Below the pieces are notes generated by a model, which was not told where the DNA came from, made no database searches, and saw nothing but the letters and a program-made list of their open reading frames with translations. Source: Polaribacter sp. BAL334 (GTDB lineage Bacteria > Bacteroidota > Bacteroidia > Flavobacteriales > Flavobacteriaceae). Taken from it: a DNA stretch of 64,000 nucleotides. The DNA lies in NCBI RefSeq assembly GCF_015767435.1, contig NZ_JADWOV010000323.1, positions 1-64,000 of the forward strand, read 5' to 3'. Shown here piece by piece: positions 31,667 to 42,316 of this stretch. How positions within the stretch are numbered: position 1 is the first letter of the stretch; every line of letters begins with the position of its first letter. The position numbers were made by a program, and so were the translations under genes.

Positions 31667-32317
31667 TTGGTTAAATTGAAAAAATGCTTAAAAATTTTAA
31701 ATGTAATATTCGTTTTGATTATGATAATTTCTTGTTCAAAAAAATCTATTCATACTAGAGATTTTTTAAATAAAATAAGTTTAAATGAATGGAATAAAGA
31801 AACTCATCGTTTTGTAAATAAAGAATGCTCCATTGAAGTTTATAAGTATTATAATGACAAAGAGATTTTAGAAAATTATTTTGTGGACGAACATACAAAT
31901 GATACAATTAATTCATTAGAAAAACATTTAAACTTTTATGTTAAAAACCGAGAAAATATTTTAAATAAATTAAAAGAAAAAGCTGATATTTTCCCTTCAA
32001 AAATGAACACTCTTGTTATAATTGAAAAATATCTTGGGTTAAACAACTCAGATATTAGCTATACTATATCTAGTAATGATTTGAATGTTAGTTTAATATT
32101 TTATTATCAGTTAGACAAATTTGAAGAAATTCAAGAATTGAAAAATTATAATGATATTTTTTTTGACTCAATTGTAAAAATGAACAATAAATGTACTGTT
32201 AATTACAATGGGCATTTAAATACAGTTGAATTTCAGACAGTTATATCTTTGAATGCTAATAATGAAATTACTTATAATGTTAAAACTGGATTCTTTGGGA
32301 GTTTTATTATTGATTGA
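31667..32317 (+). CDS. Hypothetical lipoprotein
   Basis: 216 aa from TTG 31667; TTG at 31676 is an equally good start (MKKCLKILNVIFVLIMIISC). It has a lipoprotein signal with a likely lipid-anchored Cys in IMIISCSKK. The mature part is hydrophilic, Asn/Lys-rich, with no recognised domain. It stands between queG and the galactose operon without an obvious partner. Codon use is even more AT-rich than in its neighbours, which could mean a lineage-specific or recently gained gene. Confidence 0.6.
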   Translation: MVKLKKCLKILNVIFVLIMIISCSKKSIHTRDFLNKISLNEWNKETHRFVNKECSIEVYKYYNDKEILENYFVDEHTNDTINSLEKHLNFYVKNRENILNKLKEKADIFPSKMNTLVIIEKYLGLNNSDISYTISSNDLNVSLIFYYQLDKFEEIQELKNYNDIFFDSIVKMNNKCTVNYNGHLNTVEFQTVISLNANNEITYNVKTGFFGSFIID

Positions 32318-32339
32318 TTAATAAATAATTTTTTATAAT

Positions 32340-32360
32340 ACCTACCAGTACCTACCAGTA
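32340..32360. repeat. Tandem 10-bp repeat, candidate GntR operator
   Basis: CCTACCAGTA occurs twice in direct tandem (32341-32360), preceded by an A. The period is one helical turn, and it sits just upstream of the -7 element of the gntR-type gene. Confidence 0.7.
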
Positions 32361-32374
32361 TTAAAATAATTTTA

Positions 32375-32382
32375 TATATTTG
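32375..32382 (+). promoter_or_regulatory. -7 element of the galactose operon
   Basis: TATATTTG matches TAnnTTTG exactly and ends 4 nt before the ATG at 32387, so the mRNA is either leaderless or the ATG at 32396 is used. Confidence 0.65.
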
Positions 32383-32386
32383 TGGC

Positions 32387-33385
32387 ATGAATCTCATGTC
32401 CTTAAATAACGAATCTAAAATTCCAAAATACAAACAGATTGTTTCTTCAATCGAGGAAGCCATTGCGGAAGGTTCATTAAAAAAAGACGACAAATTGCCT
32501 TCTTTAAATGCAATCAAAGACACTTTTAAACTGTCAAGAGATACTGTTTTGATGGCGTTTAATGAGCTTAAAAATCGTGGAATTATTCATTCTGTGGTTG
32601 GGAAAGGTTATTATGTTTCTTCTGAAAATATAGCGATTCAACAAAAAATATTTGTGCTTTTTGATGAGTTGAATTCGTTCAAAGAGGATTTGTACAACGC
32701 TTTTTTAGAAAATTTAGGAAATCACATTCAAGTAGAAATTTACTTTCATCATTTTAATGCTACTGTCTTCAGCAAATTGATTTTGGAAAATGTTGGCAAT
32801 TATAATTATTACGCAATCATGCCAGCTAATTTGCCAAATACACATCAAGTAATTGCGAATTTACTTCCAGATAAAGTGTTTATTTTAGATCAAACCAATG
32901 AGAGTTTGTCACAATATCCTGCCATTTATCAAAATTTTGAAAAGAATGTGTACGAGGGTTTGTTAGAAGGTTTGATACAAATTAAAAAATATAAAAAATT
33001 AGTACTCATTTATACTCCAGAAAAGCAACCTTATGGAATTCTGAATGGCTTTACGTCATTTTGCACTGACCATGAAATTTCATACATTGTTTTAGAATCT
33101 TTAAAAGATTGTCTTCCAAGAAAAGGCGAAATTTATTTGGTTTTGGATGATAAAAATTTGATAAGAATTATCAAAAAAATCAAAGAGCAATCACTTGAAA
33201 TTGCGTCAGATATTGGAATTATTTCCTATAATGATACCTTATTGAAAGAAGTTGTTGCTGAAGGAATCACCACAATTTCCACTGATTTTACACAAATGGG
33301 CGCTACTTTGGCAACAATGATTGTGCAAAATTCCCAACAAAAAATTGAAAATCCAAGTAAATTAATTCTAAGAAAATCTCTATAA
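32387..33385 (+). CDS. GntR-type regulator with LacI-like ligand domain
   Basis: 332 aa (329 from the alternative ATG at 32396). The N-terminal winged helix is of the GntR type (PKYKQIVSSIEEAIAEGSLKKDDKLPSLNAIKDTFKLSRDTVLMAFNELKNRGII, read in two parts: about 9-40 and 41-63), fused to a C-terminal periplasmic-binding-like sensor domain (about 85-332). This hybrid layout is known in AraR-type sugar regulators. It is followed after 1 nt by a mutarotase and then galK and galT, so it probably senses galactose or a derivative and represses its own operon through the tandem repeat at 32340. Confidence 0.88.
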   Translation: MNLMSLNNESKIPKYKQIVSSIEEAIAEGSLKKDDKLPSLNAIKDTFKLSRDTVLMAFNELKNRGIIHSVVGKGYYVSSENIAIQQKIFVLFDELNSFKEDLYNAFLENLGNHIQVEIYFHHFNATVFSKLILENVGNYNYYAIMPANLPNTHQVIANLLPDKVFILDQTNESLSQYPAIYQNFEKNVYEGLLEGLIQIKKYKKLVLIYTPEKQPYGILNGFTSFCTDHEISYIVLESLKDCLPRKGEIYLVLDDKNLIRIIKKIKEQSLEIASDIGIISYNDTLLKEVVAEGITTISTDFTQMGATLATMIVQNSQQKIENPSKLILRKSL

Positions 33386-33386
33386 A

Positions 33387-34274
33387 GTGTTTACAATACA
33401 TCAACAACAATCAGAAAACAACGTCATTTTGACACTAGAAAATGCTTCAAAAAGCTCGAAAGTTGTCATTTCATTGCACGAAGGTGCTCGTGTTTCATCA
33501 TTGATTTTGGCTTCAAAAACCATCATTAAAGAAATTCCCAATTTTGACTATAAAGATTCTTATGCTGCATCAATTTTGTTTCCTTTTGTAAGTCGAATTG
33601 AAAATGGCATCTATGAATTTGAGTATAAAAAATACCAACTAGATTGCAATCAAGCAGGAATTAACGCCCTGCATGGTTTAGTGTATAATAAAGTGTTTGT
33701 AATTAAAAATCAAGAAGTTACATCGGATTTTGCTTCTGTAACGTTGGGTTATATTGAAAACAATCCTCCTGTTGGATTTCCATTCAAATATGCATTGGAA
33801 TTGACGTATAAATGCACAAATACCAATTTGGAAATTCACATCCAAGTAACCAATATTGATGAACATCTATTTCCATTTACCATTGGTTGGCATCCGTATT
33901 TTTATACCGAAAATTTGGCAGAAGCTGTCGTAAAATTCAACAGCAATCAACAAATTGCTTTTGATGAAAAGTTGATTACTAAAGAAATTATTCCGTATGA
34001 AAATGACGAAATCTTTGTAATCAAAGACAAACAATTAGATGATTGTTTTGTGATGGATGACAACAAAATTAAGTTTGAAACTGCTGAATATCAGTTGGAA
34101 ATAACTTCTGATTCAGCTCATAATTTCTTGCAGATGTACACGCCACCAAACAGAAATCTGATTGCTATTGAACCCATGACCGGAATTTCAAATAGTTTTA
34201 ATAATAAGATAGGTTTGCAAGTTTTAGCACCTGAAAAAACGTACGAAATCACTTGGAATTTATCGATCATTTAA
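33387..34274 (+). CDS. galM: Aldose 1-epimerase (galactose mutarotase family)
   Basis: 295 aa. Mutarotases interconvert the alpha and beta anomers of galactose or glucose so that GalK receives the alpha form. The GTG start at 33387 follows the regulator stop by 1 nt. Family signatures are visible: FPFVSRIENGIYEF near 66-79, the first catalytic His in GINALHGLVYNK near 91-102, TIGWHPYF near 165-172 with the second His, and a late acidic residue in IAIEPMTGISNSFN near 265. It is cytosolic. Confidence 0.9.
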   Translation: MFTIHQQQSENNVILTLENASKSSKVVISLHEGARVSSLILASKTIIKEIPNFDYKDSYAASILFPFVSRIENGIYEFEYKKYQLDCNQAGINALHGLVYNKVFVIKNQEVTSDFASVTLGYIENNPPVGFPFKYALELTYKCTNTNLEIHIQVTNIDEHLFPFTIGWHPYFYTENLAEAVVKFNSNQQIAFDEKLITKEIIPYENDEIFVIKDKQLDDCFVMDDNKIKFETAEYQLEITSDSAHNFLQMYTPPNRNLIAIEPMTGISNSFNNKIGLQVLAPEKTYEITWNLSII

Positions 34275-34292
34275 AAAAATAATCAAATCAAT

Positions 34293-35441
34293 ATGAGTGC
34301 ACAACTAATCAAAGAAGTAACATCGAAATTCAAATCGATTTTTAAAACAGAACCCATTGCCATTTTTTCTCCAGGTCGTATCAATATTATTGGCGAACAC
34401 ACAGATTATAATGGTGGATTTGTATTTCCTGCAGCTGTAGATAAGGGAATTGCAGCCGCAATTCAAAAGAGCGATGCTGGTCATTCCACTGCAATTGCAA
34501 TGGATTTAAACAGTACCATTGAGTTTGAATTGGACAAATTAAAACCATCCAAAGAAGGAAGTTGGGAGAACTACGTTTTTGGTGTGGTTGCCGAAATTCA
34601 GAATAGGAACAAAATTATTGGCGATTTCAACATCGTTTTTAAAGGAAATATTCCGGCTGGAGCAGGAATGTCTTCTTCAGCAGCATTAGAAAACAGTGTG
34701 GTTTTTGGTTTGAACGAATTGTTTGATTTGGGTTTGACCAAAACAGAAATGATTTTAATTTCTCAGAAAGCTGAACACAATTATGTTGGGGTAAAATGTG
34801 GTATTATGGATCAATATGCAAGCATGTTTGGCATCAAAAACAATGCACTTTTGTTGGATTGTAGAACCATAGAATCTAAACCATATGAAATTGATTTTAA
34901 AGAGCATCAATTGATGTTGATTAACACGAATGTAAAGCACAGTTTGTCTGATAGCGCCTATAATGACAGACGTTCAGCGTGCGAAAGTGTGGCTGAATTG
35001 CTAAAAGTGGACACGTTGCGTGAAGTATCTGAAGAAGATTTAGAAAAGATTATTGACAAAATTACGCCTGAAAATTACCAAAAAGCGTTATACGTGATTC
35101 AAGAAATTGAACGCACTCAAAAAGCGGCAAAAGCGATTGAAAAAAATGATTTGGAAACTTTAGGAGCCTTGATTTATGCTTCTCACAATGGATTGCAGCA
35201 TCAATATAAAGTAAGTTGTGAAGAATTAGATTACTTAGTTGCTCAAGCAAAAAAGAATAAAAAAGTCTTGGGTGCAAGAATGATGGGTGGAGGTTTTGGA
35301 GGTTGTACCATCAATTTAATTGCTAAATCCGAAGCAAAAGCTTTTGCAGATTCAGTAGCAACTTCGTATAAAAATAAATTCAATAAAGAATGTTCAGTTT
35401 ATTTTATTGAGCTTTCTGATGGAACTCATATCGTACAATAA
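34293..35441 (+). CDS. galK: Galactokinase
   Basis: 382 aa, standard length. It phosphorylates galactose at C1, the first committed Leloir step. GHMP-kinase signatures: the galactokinase signature GRINIIGEHTDYNGGFVFPAA near 29-49 (binding galactose through the HTDYNGG acid residues), the ATP loop IPAGAGMSSSAALENSVVFGL near 115-135 and the C-terminal ARMMGGGFGGCTINLI near 328-343. It lies 18 nt after the mutarotase and 17 nt before galT. Confidence 0.97.
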   Translation: MSAQLIKEVTSKFKSIFKTEPIAIFSPGRINIIGEHTDYNGGFVFPAAVDKGIAAAIQKSDAGHSTAIAMDLNSTIEFELDKLKPSKEGSWENYVFGVVAEIQNRNKIIGDFNIVFKGNIPAGAGMSSSAALENSVVFGLNELFDLGLTKTEMILISQKAEHNYVGVKCGIMDQYASMFGIKNNALLLDCRTIESKPYEIDFKEHQLMLINTNVKHSLSDSAYNDRRSACESVAELLKVDTLREVSEEDLEKIIDKITPENYQKALYVIQEIERTQKAAKAIEKNDLETLGALIYASHNGLQHQYKVSCEELDYLVAQAKKNKKVLGARMMGGGFGGCTINLIAKSEAKAFADSVATSYKNKFNKECSVYFIELSDGTHIVQ

Positions 35442-35458
35442 TATTCAACCAATCAATC

Positions 35459-36484
35459 ATGGAAAACACCAATTTACAAGACTATTCACATAAACGTCTT
35501 AATATTTTAACAGGAGAATGGGTTTTAGTGTCTCCTCACAGAGCCAAAAGACCTTGGCAAGGTCAAAATGAGGAAATTTCGAAAGAGAAAAGGCCTTCTT
35601 ATGACCCAACTTGTTATTTGTGTGCCTCAAATACACGTGCTAATGGTGAGGTAAATCCTGATTATCAGGATGTTTTTATTTTTGATAATGATTTTGCAGC
35701 CCTGCAAAGTGATTCGCCTTCATTTTCAGTAAATGATGGTTTATTCAAAGCGCAAAGCGAAACAGGAATTTGTAAAGTAATCTGTTTTAGTCCTGACCAT
35801 TCTAAAAGTTTGGCGGAAATGTCTGTAGATGAAATTCAGAAAGTGGTAGTGGCTTGGCAAAATGAGTACACGATTTTAGGCGCAAACGAAAACATTAATT
35901 ACGTTCAAATTTTTGAAAACAAAGGGGCAGTAATGGGTTGTAGCAATCCTCATCCTCATGGACAAATCTGGAGTCAATCAACGTTGCCAAATGAAGTGGA
36001 AAAAAAAGACAATCAGCAGTTTAACTATTTTGAAAAACATCAAAAAAGTTTGTTGGAAACGTATTTACATCAAGAATTAGCAACCAAAGAGCGCATTATT
36101 TTTGAGAATGATGATTTTGTAGTATTGATTCCTTTTTGGGCAGTTTGGCCTTTTGAAACCATGATTGCTCCTAAAAAATCACAAAAAAATATCACGGAAA
36201 TGAGCGCTGAGCAAGCTAAAAATTTTGCAGAGGCAATTTCTGTAATTACAAGTACTTATGATAAATTATTCAATACTTCTTTTCCATATTCAAGTGGAAT
36301 TCATCAAGCACCAACTAACGGATTGGAAAATAATCATTGGCATTGGCACATGAGTTTTTATCCTCCATTGTTAAGAAGTGCAACTGTGAAGAAATTTATG
36401 GTGGGTTATGAGATGTTTGGTTCACCACAAAGAGACATTACCGCTGAAATTGCAGCGCAAAGGCTGAGAGATTTAGTGGGGTAA
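35459..36484 (+). CDS. galT: UDP-glucose--hexose-1-phosphate uridylyltransferase
   Basis: 341 aa. GalT swaps UMP from UDP-glucose onto galactose 1-phosphate. The catalytic histidine-triad region is GCSNPHPHGQIWSQSTLPNE near 160-179, where HPHGQ holds the uridylylated His. A zinc-binding pair is visible in YLCASNTRANGE near 56. NHWHWHMSFYPPLLRS near 295 is the C-terminal signature. It is the last gene of the galactose operon. galE is not in the window. Confidence 0.97.
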   Translation: MENTNLQDYSHKRLNILTGEWVLVSPHRAKRPWQGQNEEISKEKRPSYDPTCYLCASNTRANGEVNPDYQDVFIFDNDFAALQSDSPSFSVNDGLFKAQSETGICKVICFSPDHSKSLAEMSVDEIQKVVVAWQNEYTILGANENINYVQIFENKGAVMGCSNPHPHGQIWSQSTLPNEVEKKDNQQFNYFEKHQKSLLETYLHQELATKERIIFENDDFVVLIPFWAVWPFETMIAPKKSQKNITEMSAEQAKNFAEAISVITSTYDKLFNTSFPYSSGIHQAPTNGLENNHWHWHMSFYPPLLRSATVKKFMVGYEMFGSPQRDITAEIAAQRLRDLVG

Positions 36485-36571
36485 AAAGTTTTTAAAATTA
36501 GCAGATAGCTAACAAAACCATCAATTTGTTGAATTTTTAGAACTGTATCAACTGAAAATTAGCTATTTGAT

Positions 36572-36590
36572 AAAAGTTTAGAAACTTTTT
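36572..36590 (+). terminator. Weak terminator after galT
   Basis: AAAAGTT (36572-36578) can pair with AACTTTT (36583-36589) around a 4-nt loop. The stem is short and AT-rich. Confidence 0.35.
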
Positions 36591-36598
36591 ACATATTA

Positions 36599-36629
36599 TT
36601 TGCAATTTTAAATTTAATAGTTAGATTTG
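36599..36629 (+). promoter_or_regulatory. Promoter of the Phe/Tyr operon leader
   Basis: TTTG (36599-36602), then 19 nt, then TAGATTTG (36622-36629). Both elements match the Bacteroidetes consensus with correct spacing. The transcript would begin near 36635, about 17 nt before the leader peptide ATG. Confidence 0.8.
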
Positions 36630-36651
36630 TCGCGTTAAAACACGAAAACAA

Positions 36652-36732
36652 ATGATTTGCAATACTTGGACAGGTTTCTATTTTTACTTTTATTTTTACA
36701 ATAAAAGAAGAGACTTTGTAGTGTGTTGTTAA
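36652..36732 (+). CDS. Phe/Tyr leader peptide of the aromatic amino acid operon
   Basis: An ORF of 26 codons plus TAA. Residues 9-16 read FYFYFYFY (codons at 36676-36699), with a further Phe at residue 22 and a Trp at residue 6. Eight Phe/Tyr codons in a row, directly upstream of genes for Phe and Tyr synthesis and inside a hairpin-switch leader, identify it as the control peptide of a transcription attenuator. Ribosomes would stall here when charged tRNA-Phe or tRNA-Tyr is scarce. It is too short for ordinary gene finders. No homologue search was possible. Confidence 0.88.
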   Translation: MICNTWTGFYFYFYFYNKRRDFVVCC

Positions 36733-36762
36733 GCTAAAAAAATACATAAAATATAAAGTCTC
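36710..36762 (+). promoter_or_regulatory. Antiterminator pairing of the Phe/Tyr attenuator
   Basis: GAGACTTTGTA (36710-36720, inside the leader ORF after the Phe/Tyr codons) is complementary over 11 bp, one G-U included, to TATAAAGTCTC (36752-36762), which is also the left arm of the terminator. A ribosome stalled at the Phe/Tyr codons leaves 36710-36720 free to pair, and the terminator cannot form. A ribosome at the stop codon (36730-36732) masks part of it, and the terminator forms. Confidence 0.82.
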
Positions 36763-36785
36763 GAAATTTTCGAGGCTTTTTTTTT
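36755..36785 (+). terminator. Attenuator terminator before the prephenate dehydratase gene
   Basis: AAAGTCTCGAA (36755-36765) pairs with TTCGAGGCTTT (36769-36779), one G-U pair, followed by a T run to 36785. The dehydratase ATG is only 9 nt after the T run, so this terminator controls entry into the operon. AGAGG at 36786-36790 could act as a Shine-Dalgarno sequence, unusual in this window. Confidence 0.87.
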
Positions 36786-36794
36786 AGAGGATAT

Positions 36795-37664
36795 ATGAAC
36801 AAAAATATTATAGCCATTCAAGGAGCAGAAGGTTCCAATCATCATAAAGTTGCACAAGATTTTTATGGAGATGACATTCAATTGAAAGAGTGCATGTCTT
36901 TTGATATTTTGGTAGATAGTTTGATTGATCAATCAGCAAATATTGGAATTATGGCTTTAGAAAACACGATTGCTGGCTCCATTATTCCCAATTATGCGTT
37001 GATTGATAAAAACAATTTGCAAATTATTGGCGAAGAATATTTGAATATTCATCATCATTTAATGGCATTAGCAGGACAAGAAATTGATGATATTCAAGAG
37101 GTTTGGTCACATCCAATGGCATTATTGCAGTGCAAAGAATTTTTTAAAAAATATCCTCACATCAAAATGGTGGAAGATGTGGATACAGCTGAGGTTGCCA
37201 AAAGAATTGCACAAAAACAACTCAAAGGAATTGCAGCCATTGCTCCCAAAATAGCTGCCGAAATTTTCGGTTTGGCAATTTTGGAAGATGATATTCAAAC
37301 CATCAAAGACAATGCAACTCGTTTTGTAATTGTGCAAACGGATGTGCCATCAATAGACGAAAATTGCAACAAAGCATCCATCAAATTTCAATTGAATCAT
37401 AAAAGAGGAAGTTTGGCAGCGATTTTAAATGCGATGAGCGATTGTAAAATGAATTTAACCAAAATTCAATCTTTGCCTGTCATTGAAACTCCTTGGAAAT
37501 ATTCTTTTTTTGTTGATGTTACTTTTGAAGAATACAAAGAATATCAAAAAGCCATTTCATTAATTGCGATTATGGCAGAGAATTTTAAAGTGTTAGGCGT
37601 GTATAAAAATGGCAGACATCCATCAACCTTGAATCCTTTTCAAGAAAAAAATGAAAGTATATGA
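36795..37664 (+). CDS. pheA: Prephenate dehydratase with C-terminal ACT domain
   Basis: 289 aa. It converts prephenate to phenylpyruvate in Phe synthesis. The catalytic domain (about 1-190) has the conserved MALENTIAGSIIPNY near 55-69 and the TRF motif in DNATRFVIV near 174-182. The ACT domain (about 195-285) begins SIKFQLNHKRGSLAAILNAM and would bind Phe for feedback inhibition; LTKIQSLPVIETPWKYSFFVD is the usual ESRP-equivalent region. It is first in the operon, right behind the Phe/Tyr attenuator, and overlaps the aminotransferase gene by 4 nt. Confidence 0.95.
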   Translation: MNKNIIAIQGAEGSNHHKVAQDFYGDDIQLKECMSFDILVDSLIDQSANIGIMALENTIAGSIIPNYALIDKNNLQIIGEEYLNIHHHLMALAGQEIDDIQEVWSHPMALLQCKEFFKKYPHIKMVEDVDTAEVAKRIAQKQLKGIAAIAPKIAAEIFGLAILEDDIQTIKDNATRFVIVQTDVPSIDENCNKASIKFQLNHKRGSLAAILNAMSDCKMNLTKIQSLPVIETPWKYSFFVDVTFEEYKEYQKAISLIAIMAENFKVLGVYKNGRHPSTLNPFQEKNESI

Positions 37665-38803
37665 TTAGCGCAGCAAAAAGATTAGATACTGTTGAAGAAT
37701 ACTATTTCTCGCATAAATTAAGAGAAGTTCGCAATTTGCAATTGGCAGGAAAACCCGTTATCAATATGGGAATTGGAAGCCCTGATTTAGATCCGCCAAA
37801 AGCGGTTTTAGAGGCAATGCAACAAAGTTTATTTGATGCAGGAGCTCATAAATATCAATCGTATCAAGGATTGCCAGAATTGAGAAAAGCGATGGCAAAT
37901 TTCTACAAAGAAAAGTACCAAGTTGATTCAAATCCTGAAAATGAAATTTTGCCTTTGATGGGAAGCAAAGAGGGAATTATGCATATTTCAATGGCTTTTT
38001 TGAATGAAGGTGATGGTGTTTTGATTCCAAATCCTGGGTATCCAACCTATACTTCTGTGACAAATTTATTGGCTGCAAAACCTGTTTTTTACAATTTGAG
38101 TGAAGAAAATGATTGGCAACCCAATTTTGAAGAATTAGAAAAACAAGATTTATCAGGCGTAAAAATCATGTGGGTCAATTATCCTCACATGCCAACAGGC
38201 ACCAATGCTACTTTAGAAACTTTTGAAAAGTTGATTGCTTTTGGTAAAAAACATCAAATTTTGATCATCAATGACAATCCTTATAGTTTTGTTTTGAACG
38301 AAAATCCGTTGAGCATTTTACGAGTTGAAGGCGCAAAAGAAGTGGCTTTAGAGCTAAATTCACTTAGCAAAACGTTCAACATGGCTGGCTGGAGAGTTGG
38401 AATGGTGTTAGGAAAAGCAATTTATCTCAACGAAGTTTTAAAAGTGAAAAGCAATATGGATTCTGGAATGTTTTACGGAATTCAAAAAGGAGCCATCAAA
38501 GCATTGGAAATGAGCAATGAATGGTTTTTTGAGCAAAATAAAATTTATGAAGAACGCCGAAATTTAATTTGGCAATTGGCAGATAAATTAGACTGCACGT
38601 ATGAAAAAGATTCCACAGGTTTGTTTGTTTGGGCGAAAATTCCTGAAGGAAAAAAATCAGAAGAGGTGACAGATGAAATCTTATATAACAAAGATATTTT
38701 CATCACGCCAGGAACTGTTTTTGGTTCGCAAGGAGAAGGTTATATCCGTTTTTCATTGTGTGTGACTTCTGAAATTATCAAAGAAGCGATTTCAAGAATA
38801 TGA
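37661..38803 (+). CDS. Class I/II aminotransferase, probably aromatic
   Basis: 380 aa, fold-type I PLP enzyme. The PLP lysine is in NSLSKTFNMAGWRVGMV near 227-243, the substrate arginine in YIRFSLCV near the C-terminus, and the N-terminal NMGIGSPDLDPP is typical. Its place between prephenate dehydratase and prephenate dehydrogenase, with 4-nt overlaps on both sides, makes transamination of phenylpyruvate and hydroxyphenylpyruvate the likely role. Sequence alone does not separate this from LL-diaminopimelate or aspartate aminotransferase relatives. Confidence 0.9.
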   Translation: MISAAKRLDTVEEYYFSHKLREVRNLQLAGKPVINMGIGSPDLDPPKAVLEAMQQSLFDAGAHKYQSYQGLPELRKAMANFYKEKYQVDSNPENEILPLMGSKEGIMHISMAFLNEGDGVLIPNPGYPTYTSVTNLLAAKPVFYNLSEENDWQPNFEELEKQDLSGVKIMWVNYPHMPTGTNATLETFEKLIAFGKKHQILIINDNPYSFVLNENPLSILRVEGAKEVALELNSLSKTFNMAGWRVGMVLGKAIYLNEVLKVKSNMDSGMFYGIQKGAIKALEMSNEWFFEQNKIYEERRNLIWQLADKLDCTYEKDSTGLFVWAKIPEGKKSEEVTDEILYNKDIFITPGTVFGSQGEGYIRFSLCVTSEIIKEAISRI

Positions 38804-39651
38804 AAAATATCTATTTAATAGGAGTTGGTTTGATTGGCGGAAGTTTTGCGATTGATATCAAAAAACATTTTCCAGAAACGGTCATTCATGGAATTAGTAG
38901 AAAAGAAGCTACTTTAGAGGAAGCATTGTCTCTAAATTTGATTGATAAAAAAGCCACTTTAGATGATTTGGAAAATGCAGATTTGGTGATTATTTCAATT
39001 CCTGTGGATGCAACTGTCAAAATATTACCCACAATTTTAGACAAAATTTCTGACAATACTTTAGTAATTGATGCAGGTTCAACCAAAGAAGCCATTTGCA
39101 AAGTGATTGAAAATCACCCGAAAAGAAGGAATTTCTTGGCTTGTCATCCCATTGCTGGAACAGAAAATTCAGGACCTTCAGCAGCAATTCCTAATTTGTA
39201 TGTTGGTAAAACCAATATCATTTGCGAAGTTGAAAAAACAACCTTCAAATTGCAAGAAAAAGCATTGAAATTATTCACAGCAATTGGCATGCGAATCAGA
39301 TATATGGATCCTGTTGCTCATGACAAACATATTGCGTATGTATCTCATCTGTCACATATTAGTTCTTTTATGTTAGGAAAAACAGTTTTGGAAAAAGAGA
39401 AAAATGAACGTGATATTTTTGACATGGCAGGTTCAGGTTTTGCGTCAACAGTTCGTTTGGCGAAAAGTTCTCCAGCAATGTGGACACCTATTTTTCAACA
39501 AAATAAAGAAAATGTTATTGAAACATTAGAAGAATACATCAGCAATTTGCAACATTTTAAAGTGTTGATGCAACAAGAAAATTTCGATGAAATTTACAAC
39601 GAAATGGAAAATACCAATTATATAAAACAAATATTAAACGGCATCAAATAA
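38800..39651 (+). CDS. tyrA: Prephenate dehydrogenase
   Basis: 283 aa. It oxidatively decarboxylates prephenate to hydroxyphenylpyruvate with NAD(P). The N-terminal Rossmann motif is YLIGVGLIGGSFAIDIKK near 4-21; the catalytic His region is ACHPIAGTENSGPSAA near 112-127, and a second conserved His segment is VAHDKHIAYVSHLSH near 170-184. There is no fused chorismate mutase or ACT domain. It is coupled by a 4-nt overlap to the aminotransferase and lies 20 nt before the DAHP synthase gene. Confidence 0.95.
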   Translation: MKNIYLIGVGLIGGSFAIDIKKHFPETVIHGISRKEATLEEALSLNLIDKKATLDDLENADLVIISIPVDATVKILPTILDKISDNTLVIDAGSTKEAICKVIENHPKRRNFLACHPIAGTENSGPSAAIPNLYVGKTNIICEVEKTTFKLQEKALKLFTAIGMRIRYMDPVAHDKHIAYVSHLSHISSFMLGKTVLEKEKNERDIFDMAGSGFASTVRLAKSSPAMWTPIFQQNKENVIETLEEYISNLQHFKVLMQQENFDEIYNEMENTNYIKQILNGIK

Positions 39652-39671
39652 TCGCCAAAAACACCAAAAAA

Positions 39672-40754
39672 ATGAAAAATACAACAGCATTAAGAACATG
39701 GTTGGATGAAATGAATTTAAGCCATCCACTTGTAATAGCAGGGCCTTGTAGTGCAGAAACTGAAGAACAAGTTTTGAAAATTGCACACGAATTAAAAGAT
39801 TCTGATGTAAACTATTATAGAGCAGGAATTTGGAAACCAAGAACAAGACCAGGAATGTTTGAAGGTGTTGGAGAAATTGGGTTGAGATGGCTCAAAAAAG
39901 TAAAAGAAGAAACTGGTATGAAAACCTGTACTGAAGTTGCCAATGCTGCACACGTAAAGTTAGCAGTGGACAATGATGTTGATTTACTTTGGATTGGAGC
40001 GCGTTCAACAGTTTCGCCATTTATCATGCAAGAAATTGCAGATGCTTTGCAAGGAACTGACAAAATTGTGTTGGTAAAAAACCCTGTAAATCCTGATTTG
40101 GCTTTGTGGTTGGGTGGAATTGAGCGTTTATACACAGCAGGAATCAAAAATTTAGGCGCCATTCACAGAGGATTTTCAACCTATGAAAAATCAAAGTACA
40201 GAAATATTCCTGAATGGCAATTAGCCATTGAATTCCAACATAAATTTCCTGATTTGCCATTGATTTGTGATCCATCACACATCACAGGAAACAGAAATAT
40301 GATATTTGATGTTTCACAAACTGCGTTAGATTTGAATTTTGATGGTTTGATGATTGAAACTCACATTGATCCAGACAATGCTTGGAGTGATGCTGCACAG
40401 CAAGTAACACCAACAAGATTGAAGCAAATTATGGAGGATTTAAAAATCAGAAAAGAAACAGAAACGGATACTAAATTTAAAGATTCTTTAGAAAATTTGC
40501 GTGCACAAATCAATGTAATTGATGATCAATTGATTGATATGTTAGGAAAACGTATGAAAGTTGCTGACCAAATAGGACAACTTAAAAAAGAGAAAAACGT
40601 GGCAGTTTTACAATCAAAACGTTGGAACGAAATTTTGGGTAATATGGTTTTAGAAGGAGAACAAAGAGGATTGAGTGAAGAGTTTATTTTGAGAATGTTC
40701 AAAGCAATTCACCAAGAATCTATCAATCATCAAGAAAAAATTATCAACGGATAA
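39672..40754 (+). CDS. Bifunctional DAHP synthase / chorismate mutase
   Basis: 360 aa. The N-terminal domain (about 1-262) is a type I-beta 3-deoxy-7-phosphoheptulonate synthase, catalysing the first shikimate-pathway step: VIAGPCSAETEEQV near 17-30, GIWKPRTRPGMFEGVG near 53-68 and CDPSHITGNRNM near 198-209. The C-terminal domain (about 275-360) is an AroQ chorismate mutase: ENLRAQINVIDDQLIDMLGKRM. Fusing first and branch-point steps lets the Phe/Tyr arm regulate pathway entry. The gene ends the operon and is followed by a 17-bp terminator. Confidence 0.95.
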   Translation: MKNTTALRTWLDEMNLSHPLVIAGPCSAETEEQVLKIAHELKDSDVNYYRAGIWKPRTRPGMFEGVGEIGLRWLKKVKEETGMKTCTEVANAAHVKLAVDNDVDLLWIGARSTVSPFIMQEIADALQGTDKIVLVKNPVNPDLALWLGGIERLYTAGIKNLGAIHRGFSTYEKSKYRNIPEWQLAIEFQHKFPDLPLICDPSHITGNRNMIFDVSQTALDLNFDGLMIETHIDPDNAWSDAAQQVTPTRLKQIMEDLKIRKETETDTKFKDSLENLRAQINVIDDQLIDMLGKRMKVADQIGQLKKEKNVAVLQSKRWNEILGNMVLEGEQRGLSEEFILRMFKAIHQESINHQEKIING

Positions 40755-40767
40755 TTTTATAAAATTT

Positions 40768-40806
40768 AAACTTCACATTCCTGAAACTTCAGGAATGTGA
40801 AGTTTT
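40768..40806. terminator. Strong bidirectional terminator
   Basis: A perfect 17-bp stem between 40768-40784 and 40789-40805 (AAACTTCACATTCCTGA and its complement), loop of 4 nt, flanked by A and T runs. It ends the aromatic operon and also the convergent minus-strand gene ending at 40811. Confidence 0.92.
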
Positions 40807-40810
40807 TTAT

Positions 40811-41263
40811 TTATTTTTTAGTTCTTTTAAAAATATATCTTGTGATGAAAATTCCTTGACCATCTTTTTCTCCAGCATCACTCTCCACACCACTATTTAC
40901 AAAAACCAAATCCCAACCTTCTTCAACCATTGCATTTATTTTAGATGTAATAACAGCATCATTAGCAGCAATATTCTGAAAGCGAATTCCTCCAAGGTTG
41001 TAAAAATTTAAAAGCTTGGTTTCATCAAAATTTTTCACACGTATTTCATCTCTATTTGATTTATTACGAGAGTTATCCTCATCACTTTGAGTGGAAGTAA
41101 AATCTTTATAATTTTTTTCTTCATTAGCACTGATAAGCCTTGAACGACCGAGTCCAGCAGGGACAATAGATTCCACACTTGTAATAACTTTATATTCTAC
41201 TTGGGCATTTGCCTCAACGAATACTAACAAAATGAAACTAAAAAGGATACTAAATTTTTTCAT
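40811..41263 (-). CDS. Secreted protein, DUF4177-like
   Basis: 150 aa from the ATG at 41263, which starts a signal peptide (MKKFSILFSFILLVFVEANAQ). An upstream ATG at 41311 would place 16 unrelated residues before it, and the -7 element TATATTTG (41299-41292 on this strand) supports the later start. The C-terminal part SKINAMVEEGWDLVFVNSG resembles DUF4177-like small proteins; the middle is charged and Asn/Asp-rich. Periplasmic or exported; function unknown. Confidence 0.72.
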   Translation of the reverse strand: MKKFSILFSFILLVFVEANAQVEYKVITSVESIVPAGLGRSRLISANEEKNYKDFTSTQSDEDNSRNKSNRDEIRVKNFDETKLLNFYNLGGIRFQNIAANDAVITSKINAMVEEGWDLVFVNSGVESDAGEKDGQGIFITRYIFKRTKK

Positions 41264-41350
41264 GTTTATTAATTTTAAATGATTTTTTAAACAAATATAA
41301 AATATTCTCACGTTTTGAATTGAATATTTATTTTACTTTTGAAGTCAATT

Positions 41351-42316
41351 ATGATAACTGGAATCGTTTACAAATCTACTGGAAGTTGGTATTTAGTGAA
41401 ATCCGAAAAAGGCGTTTTTCACAAATGTAAAATCCAAGGGAAATTCAGAATTAAAGGAATTAAAAGCACCAATCCAATTGCAGTTGGTGACAAAGTTTCT
41501 TTTTTTTTGGAGAAAATTGGCGATGAAGAAATTGGAATTATCAAAACCATTCACGATCGTCAAAATTTTATTGCACGAAAATCTGTAAATCTTTCCAAAC
41601 AAATACAAATTATTGCCGCAAATATTGATGTCGTTTTTTTACTAATTACGATTGATAATCCACCAACGTTCACCACTTTTATTGATCGTTTTTTGGTGAC
41701 CACAAGAGCTTACAGAATTGATACTGTATTGATTTTCAATAAAATTGATATTTATGAAATTGAGCAAAGGGCAGAAATTTTATATCTAAAAGATATTTAT
41801 GAAGCTATAGGATATCAATGTGTGGAGGTTTCTGCAACTAAAAATATCAATATTGATACCATCAAGGAAATCATGTTGGATAAAACAGCGATGTTTGTGG
41901 GTCATTCTGGAGTTGGAAAATCAACCTTAGTGAATGCTATTGAGCCTACATTGCATCTGAAAACCAAAGAAATTTCTGACCAACACAAACAAGGTCAACA
42001 CACCACAACATTTGCGGAAATGTTCGATTTGAGTTTCAATGCACGAATTATTGATACACCTGGAATCAAAGGTTTTGGAATTGTGGATATCAATAAATAT
42101 GAGCTGAATGATTATTTTCCTGAGTTTTTTGAGTTGAAACAATATTGTAAATTCAATAATTGTTTGCATTTGAAAGAGCCAAATTGCGCCGTAAAACAAG
42201 CTTTAGAAGAAGAAAAAATTTCTTGGTCTCGTTATAAAAGTTACCTTCAAATTTTAGATGGTGAAGACGAATCTGAGCATTACAGAACGGATACTTGGGA
42301 AGAAGAAGAAGATTAA
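41351..42316 (+). CDS. rsgA: Ribosome small-subunit-dependent GTPase RsgA
   Basis: 321 aa from ATG 41351; a TTG four codons upstream is less likely because RsgA usually begins MxGxVYKSTGSWY. RsgA is a circularly permuted GTPase that helps late 30S maturation. The order is an N-terminal OB-fold (about 1-75), G4 NKID near 130, G1 GHSGVGKSTLVNAI near 183-196, G3 DTPGIKGFG near 231, and a C-terminal zinc-binding helix bundle with Cys/His in YCKFNNCLHLKEPNC near 264-278. dtd follows 4 nt later. Confidence 0.96.
   Translation: MITGIVYKSTGSWYLVKSEKGVFHKCKIQGKFRIKGIKSTNPIAVGDKVSFFLEKIGDEEIGIIKTIHDRQNFIARKSVNLSKQIQIIAANIDVVFLLITIDNPPTFTTFIDRFLVTTRAYRIDTVLIFNKIDIYEIEQRAEILYLKDIYEAIGYQCVEVSATKNINIDTIKEIMLDKTAMFVGHSGVGKSTLVNAIEPTLHLKTKEISDQHKQGQHTTTFAEMFDLSFNARIIDTPGIKGFGIVDINKYELNDYFPEFFELKQYCKFNNCLHLKEPNCAVKQALEEEKISWSRYKSYLQILDGEDESEHYRTDTWEEEED

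Follow-up and report, generated by a model that had tools for sequence, protein, structure and literature searches.

Within the window, by which we mean the whole stretch of 64,000 nucleotides of Polaribacter sp. BAL334 DNA that was analyzed, four genes of aromatic amino acid synthesis form an operon on the forward strand, as do all features given below. The operon begins with pheA, which encodes the prephenate dehydratase of the Phe branch (36795..37664; PF00800, 180.7 bits), and continues with a class I/II aminotransferase gene (37661..38803; PF00155, 211.2 bits), tyrA for the prephenate dehydrogenase of the Tyr branch (38800..39651; NF006307, 385.3 bits against a cut-off of 295, with PF02153 and PF20463), and a gene for a DAHP synthase fused to chorismate mutase, of the common aromatic pathway (Phe/Tyr entry; 39672..40754; PF00793, 127.3 bits, and PF01817, 79.1 bits). 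These profile matches agree with a preliminary description of this DNA, which had placed the same four functions under the control of one attenuator, and the gene order pheA-aminotransferase-tyrA-aroG was kept in all 55 loci for which 4.2 kb or more, counted from the start of pheA, was available, nearly all of them from the 58 plus-strand places described below. The aminotransferase is similar to LL-diaminopimelate aminotransferase models, yet stays under their cut-offs; its operon context suggests that it acts in Phe/Tyr transamination.

Upstream of the operon, galT ends at 36484, followed by a TTTG box (36599..36602), which we take to be the -33-type box of a Bacteroidetes-type promoter, and, after a spacer of 19 nt, by a -7-type box, TAGATTTG (36622..36629), behind which transcription would start at about 36634-36637. 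The leader peptide ORF, MICNTWTGFYFYFYFYNKRRDFVVCC (36652..36732), runs for 26 codons from the ATG at 36652 to the TAA stop at 36730-36732. It contains a Trp codon (36667..36669) and, at residues 9-16, eight control codons in which Phe and Tyr alternate four times (TTC TAT TTT TAC TTT TAT TTT TAC; 36676..36699). R2, the 5' strand of the antiterminator (GAGACTTTGTA, 36710..36720), follows the last control codon at a distance of 10 nt and forms 11 pairs, one of them G-U, with R3 (TATAAAGTCTC, 36752..36762). R3 also overlaps the 5' arm of an intrinsic terminator, identified by a search for terminator-like sites and by pair comparison: from 36755, it pairs with R4 (TTCGAGGCTTT, 36769..36779) in a hairpin of 11 bp (AAAGTCTCGAA-ATT-TTCGAGGCTTT, 36755-36779), so that antiterminator and terminator are mutually exclusive. 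The U-tract (36777..36785) ends 9 nt before the pheA ATG at 36795. Direct reading thus bore out the promoter boxes, the ORF with its alternating run, both hairpins, and the distance to pheA at the positions that the preliminary description had assigned to them.

Several counts place these features against the rest of the sequence. The 24-base codon pattern for FYFYFYFY occurs once in the 3.3-Mb genome, and its reversed control does not occur. Other runs of seven F/Y codons in this genome (eight matches including two here, against 17 for the reversed-pattern control) had no ATG ahead in the stretch inspected. In a region of 701 nt, we found three terminator-like sites, compared to 0.3 (sd 0.6) in shuffles, namely the leader hairpin, the same hairpin on the opposite strand, and one within galT. 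A scan of the same region for sigma-70-type promoters was uninformative (5 found, 3.9 expected), and the promoter was therefore assessed from relatives.

Conservation in Flavobacteriaceae

We compared 168 pheA loci of the family, that of the window included, which comprise the best 80 of 181 titled contigs, the 30 best loci from a search of 299 genomes (with a pheA match in 268 of them, and the window's own genome among the 30), and 58 further plus-strand places. A leader was called where an ORF starting with ATG upstream of pheA had at least five F/Y in 10 residues. By this rule, an F/Y-rich leader followed by a terminator lies upstream of pheA in 167 of the 168 loci, which are not independent, since they include many from Polaribacter and Tenacibaculum, contain some genomes twice, and leave out most genomes with weak pheA matches. 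The exception (L147) has its terminator 545 nt upstream of pheA, so that its leader would fall outside the DNA fetched. Four loci (L007, L012, L024, and L073) have, ahead of the leader and 267-307 nt away from pheA, a strong terminator that probably ends the upstream gene. Removal of identical leader-to-gene DNA left 161 distinct leaders. Promoter boxes recur as well: of 160 loci, 67 have T[T/A]G-N17-21-TANNTTTG in the 110 nt that precede the leader ATG, compared to 2.1 in shuffles, and 75 have the TANNTTTG box (17.4 expected), which in 51 of them ends 22-24 nt ahead of the ATG.

The antiterminator and its geometry

We took five pairs, with G-U allowed, as the core of R2 and R3. This core is complete in 158 of 161 loci, compared to 324 of 1127 combinations with a foreign R3 type under the same search. 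When R2 was permuted among loci with no new search, a mean of 110 of the 161 was complete, with a maximum of 120 in 1000 permutations, and with one locus per cluster the core is complete in 64 of 65 as against a mean of 40 when permuted; these covariation controls leave relatedness in. Base-shuffled spacers reach the observed R2:R3 pairing in at most 5% of cases for 118 of 161 loci (median 1.7%). The core types of the family are GAGAC/GTCTC, GGGAC/GTCCC, GGAAC/GTTCC, and GGAGC/GCTCC, and outside the family the strands have very different letters, such as CGGGATTGT/GCAATCCCG, AGAGCGGTC/GACCGCTTT, and GGAGGCGGGA/TCCCGCCTCC. Compensatory changes were found in both the antiterminator and the terminator helices of the family loci; together with the leader kept upstream of pheA, this is the pattern in orthologues on which the preliminary description had made its reading depend. 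A MAFFT alignment of 65 leaders shifts R2 by about one base between clades and therefore entered neither the pair counts nor a covariance model; pairs were counted by script instead.

The distance between the codon run and the switch varies little in most loci. A wide search placed the start of R2 at 8-11 nt past the last F/Y codon in 153 of 167 loci, and in a narrower search the distance to the R2 core was 10-12 nt in 148 of 158. When the last F/Y codon occupies the A site, the ribosome is expected to shield about 9 nt past it. When the nucleotides under the ribosome were masked and the RNA was folded before R4, R2:R3 formed in 91-99% of loci while the A site was at a run codon (91-94% at the last of these), compared to 39-40% one codon past the last F/Y and 20-26% further on. 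In 14 of the 161 loci, no R2:R3 forms before R4 when the ribosome is stalled. A ribosome at the stop codon leaves R2:R3 in place in 55 of 161 loci, and a second sweep gave this pairing in 19-21 of the 76 loci that it followed to the stop; masking is thus imperfect under the footprint assumed, and this pairing may reflect basal read-through or a wrong footprint. At equilibrium, folding of the full-length leader prefers the terminator in 156 of the 161 loci, even when the ribosome is stalled, so the model needs co-transcriptional folding, in which the choice is made while the RNA emerges.

Without a ribosome, and before R4, R2 pairs with R3 in 127 of 161 loci, upstream in 28, and otherwise in 6. 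A 1:2 pause or protector hairpin of the E. coli trp type is therefore not general among the 161 loci, and in most species, expression might rise if the leader were no longer translated. In the window, R2 of the free full leader folds upstream, which may make the pheA leader there one of the exceptions with such a hairpin.

Selection on the leader codons

The 161 family leaders, with a mean length of 23.5 residues, contain on average 5.6 Phe, 3.5 Tyr, and 0.7 Trp. Every one of them has at least two Tyr and at least three Phe codons. The last four positions of the run are F or Y in all 161 (partly by construction), with F:Y near 1:1 at the third and fourth positions from the end, and mainly Phe at the last-but-one (152 of 161) and last (131 of 161); because leaders and run ends were chosen by F/Y content, part of these F/Y statistics arises by construction. 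Run length differs between loci. The strict FYFYFYFY alternation that the preliminary description had emphasized holds at the window, but as a general rule it fails, being found in only 20 of the 161 distinct leaders. Among 121 nearest-neighbor pairs (7 sequences without a near neighbor were skipped), changes in the last six codons were synonymous in 45 cases, between F and Y in 23, otherwise among F, Y, and W in 3, and of other kinds in 10, compared to about 69% of other kinds expected from neutral mutation. Since changes are mostly synonymous or between F and Y, selection acts on the class of amino acid and not on the exact peptide or on U-richness alone. In their third bases, the leader F/Y codons contain more TTC (30%) and TAC (35%) than those of pheA genes (14% and 23%), which perhaps serves to avoid long T runs.

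The sensing of both end products, Phe and Tyr, that the preliminary description had proposed is well supported by this retention of codons, which is also the evidence for the putative Tyr sensing; the description had missed the Trp codon. One Trp is present in 112 of the 161 family leaders and two in none, and the share of Trp among PheA codons (0.5%) predicts about 0.1 per leader. Outside the main set, Trp occurs in only 8 of 35 leaders with at least five F/Y and is thus largely a family trait.

The best surviving alternative is that the attenuator senses only Phe in practice and that the Tyr codons are tolerated look-alikes with no part in control. The run codons nearest the switch are indeed mainly Phe, and E. 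coli pheA relies on Phe codons alone. We nevertheless consider it unlikely, because at least two Tyr are kept not only throughout the family but also in 34 of the 35 leaders outside the main set, residues besides F and Y are rare in the run, and tyrA belongs to the operon. Moreover, in the masked folding, R2:R3 forms whichever run codon occupies the A site, so that a stall at Tyr should act as well.

Two further readings, which we regard as very improbable to a similar degree, dispense with the counting of codons. The F/Y run could act as a ligand-responsive nascent-chain arrest peptide, and certain flanking residues do recur (K at +2 in 101 of 161). Known arrest peptides are sequence-specific, however, whereas F and Y interchange freely here at most run positions, third bases drift, and the run varies in length; the recurring flank adjoins R2, which gives an RNA reason for its conservation. 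The run could also be a U-rich, unstructured spacer, without translation, before an ordinary RNA switch or a leader that binds a protein or tRNA. The run is U-rich, and R2:R3 forms before R4 without any ribosome in the 127 loci mentioned above, but U-richness alone would permit Leu, Ser, Ile, and drift of the frame, which are rare, and no Rfam family reaches its cut-off in the part of the window scanned (32000-42000). Finally, a terminator that merely ends the upstream gal operon next to a chance ORF would fit the end of galT upstream of the element, but promoter boxes separate galT from the leader, and the constant company of leader, terminator, and pheA across the family refutes it.

Spread beyond the family set

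Another 54 pheA loci were taken from more distant relatives (families and loci carry our own labels): 4 divergent members of the family, chosen for low identity, 16 loci from elsewhere in the order, and 34 from elsewhere in the class. The order search contributed 16 of its 51 other-family matches (all 10 outside f4 and f15, 4 of f4, and 2 of f15), and the class search 34 of its 36 matches outside f1 and f4, with G444 (contig end) and the partial G531 left out. PF00800 was found in only 23 of 80 class genomes, so the class tally covers pheA-bearing genomes only. Here we required an ATG and at least six F/Y in 10 residues within 350 nt. Such a leader was present in 33 of the 54 loci, compared to 0.5 expected in shuffles: all 4 divergent family members, 8 of the 16 loci from other families, and 21 of the 34 from the rest of the class (0.05, 0.25, and 0.2 expected, respectively). 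A terminator follows the leader in 4, 5, and 15 of these, together 24 of 33, and was not found by the rule used in the other 9. One of the eight other-family leaders (L182, from a 0.6-Mb genome) lacks a terminator and looks doubtful.

Among the 21 loci without an F/Y leader by this rule are all four of f4 and two that belong to genomes of 0.5-0.6 Mb. L170 and L171, which are also counted here, have a leader with five F/Y, matching R2/R3, and a terminator. At the f4 loci (L186-L189), pheA is far more distant, no other gene of the operon was detected beside it, and there is no F/Y leader; f4 is a lineage that lost or never had attenuator control. Judged by these sequence features, a putative attenuator precedes this operon in nearly all family relatives examined and in many other Bacteroidia.

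Discussion

The leader ORF with its control codons, the mutually exclusive helices with their covariation and geometry, and the operon behind them come directly from the sequence and its comparison. Taken together, they very probably represent a ribosome-mediated transcription attenuator for which charged tRNA-Phe and tRNA-Tyr are the joint signals, perhaps along with tRNA-Trp by way of a single codon. We propose that transcription begins near 36635, with a ribosome following RNA polymerase and translating the 26 codons of the leader. When Phe-tRNA or Tyr-tRNA is short, the ribosome would wait in the run at 36676-36699, with its leading edge at about 36708 for the last codon, just short of R2 at 36710. 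As the stalled ribosome ends ahead of R2, this strand would be free to pair with R3 (36752-36762) once R3 is made, R3:R4 would not form before the polymerase passes, and read-through would allow pheA, the aminotransferase gene, tyrA, and aroG to be transcribed. When all are plentiful, the ribosome would move on and cover R2, R3 would pair with R4, and transcription would stop at about 36785. Leader translation, termination, read-through, and the triggering amino acids are predictions of this model.

More tentatively, and with somewhat less than even confidence, we suggest that a pan-aromatic attenuator is ancestral to much of Bacteroidia, reading Phe, Tyr, and, in most Flavobacteriaceae, Trp, and gating both branches together with the DAHP synthase that supplies all three. 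It would use three RNA strands only, with the ribosome replacing the 1:2 hairpin and selection keeping the switch strand one ribosome half-footprint after the last aromatic codon.

Judging from the open-access literature, the control of amino acid synthesis in Bacteroidota, a phylum that makes little use of Shine-Dalgarno sequences, is little described. If our reading is true, control by one leader sensitive to two or three aromatic amino acids would account for the balancing of two branches from one promoter. It would also offer a natural test of multivalent attenuation and of the coupling between ribosome and RNA polymerase. The nearly 200 examples (161 in the family and 33 more) could seed an Rfam entry.

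The genome of the window contains other candidate leaders. A His leader peptide, MTFIQKHHHHFYNCSQAI (HHHH), lies 157 to 103 nt before the chosen hisG ATG and is followed by a terminator (L232, contig C215), and a Trp leader peptide, MKNQKNIWWWNSLKN (IWWW), lies 134 to 89 nt before the trpE ATG, also with a terminator (L233, contig C189). The trpE leader scores 46.6 bits with RF01692, slightly below the cut-off of 49. The two look like classical his and trp leaders and count in favor of attenuation at pheA. For the ilv operon of this genome, the 9 kb taken showed no leader for Ile, Leu, or Val followed by a terminator.

The closest classical counterpart is the E. coli pheA attenuator, in which a Phe-rich leader peptide and a terminator precede the prephenate dehydratase gene. 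That leader (Rfam RF01859, Phe_leader) has Phe codons without Tyr and serves an operon for Phe only. At the window, RF01859 scores 27.2 bits against a cut-off of 55, and we discarded this sub-threshold match as meaningless, since L237, a stretch within the ilv genes, reaches 31.1. Multivalent attenuators, in which a single leader reads several amino acids made by the operon, precede ilvGMEDA, ilvBN, and thr; they differ from the present one in their branched-chain or Thr/Ile codons and in their 1:2 hairpin architecture. These operons of enterobacteria are named as attenuated in the part of PMC1183508 consulted.

Within Bacteroidota, the preliminary description had held that few leader peptides with alternating Phe-Tyr codons are known. 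For attenuation as such, there are precedents in the parts of the literature consulted: the Bacteroid-trp leader (Rfam RF01692) is a cis-regulatory peptide leader of Bacteroidetes (PMC2864571), and leader-like sORFs have been noted in B. thetaiotaomicron (PMC7366714). As for leader genes of Bacteroidetes, PMC4833913 deals with them only in bulk. Bacteroid-trp differs from the pheA leader in its Trp codons and its operon, and it is absent from the three Rfam matches up to E=5 at the pheA locus (32000-42000 scanned). In F. psychrophilum, strong clues for leader-peptide attenuation upstream of amino acid biosynthesis operons were reported in 2021, with structured 5' elements at pheA and hisG, of which that at pheA, without an Rfam hit, is conserved in other Flavobacteriaceae genera and that at hisG within the family (PMC9723704). 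The pheA element is thus partly known, as that report concerns the same gene in the same family; its section on the element, as consulted, makes no mention of a leader peptide, Phe/Tyr codons, an antiterminator, geometry, or spread beyond the family. In the open-access literature covered, a Phe/Tyr leader in Bacteroidota, its coding, and its working were not found. Compared to these systems, the joint Phe and Tyr codons, often with Trp, the geometry, the covariation, and the spread are new here.
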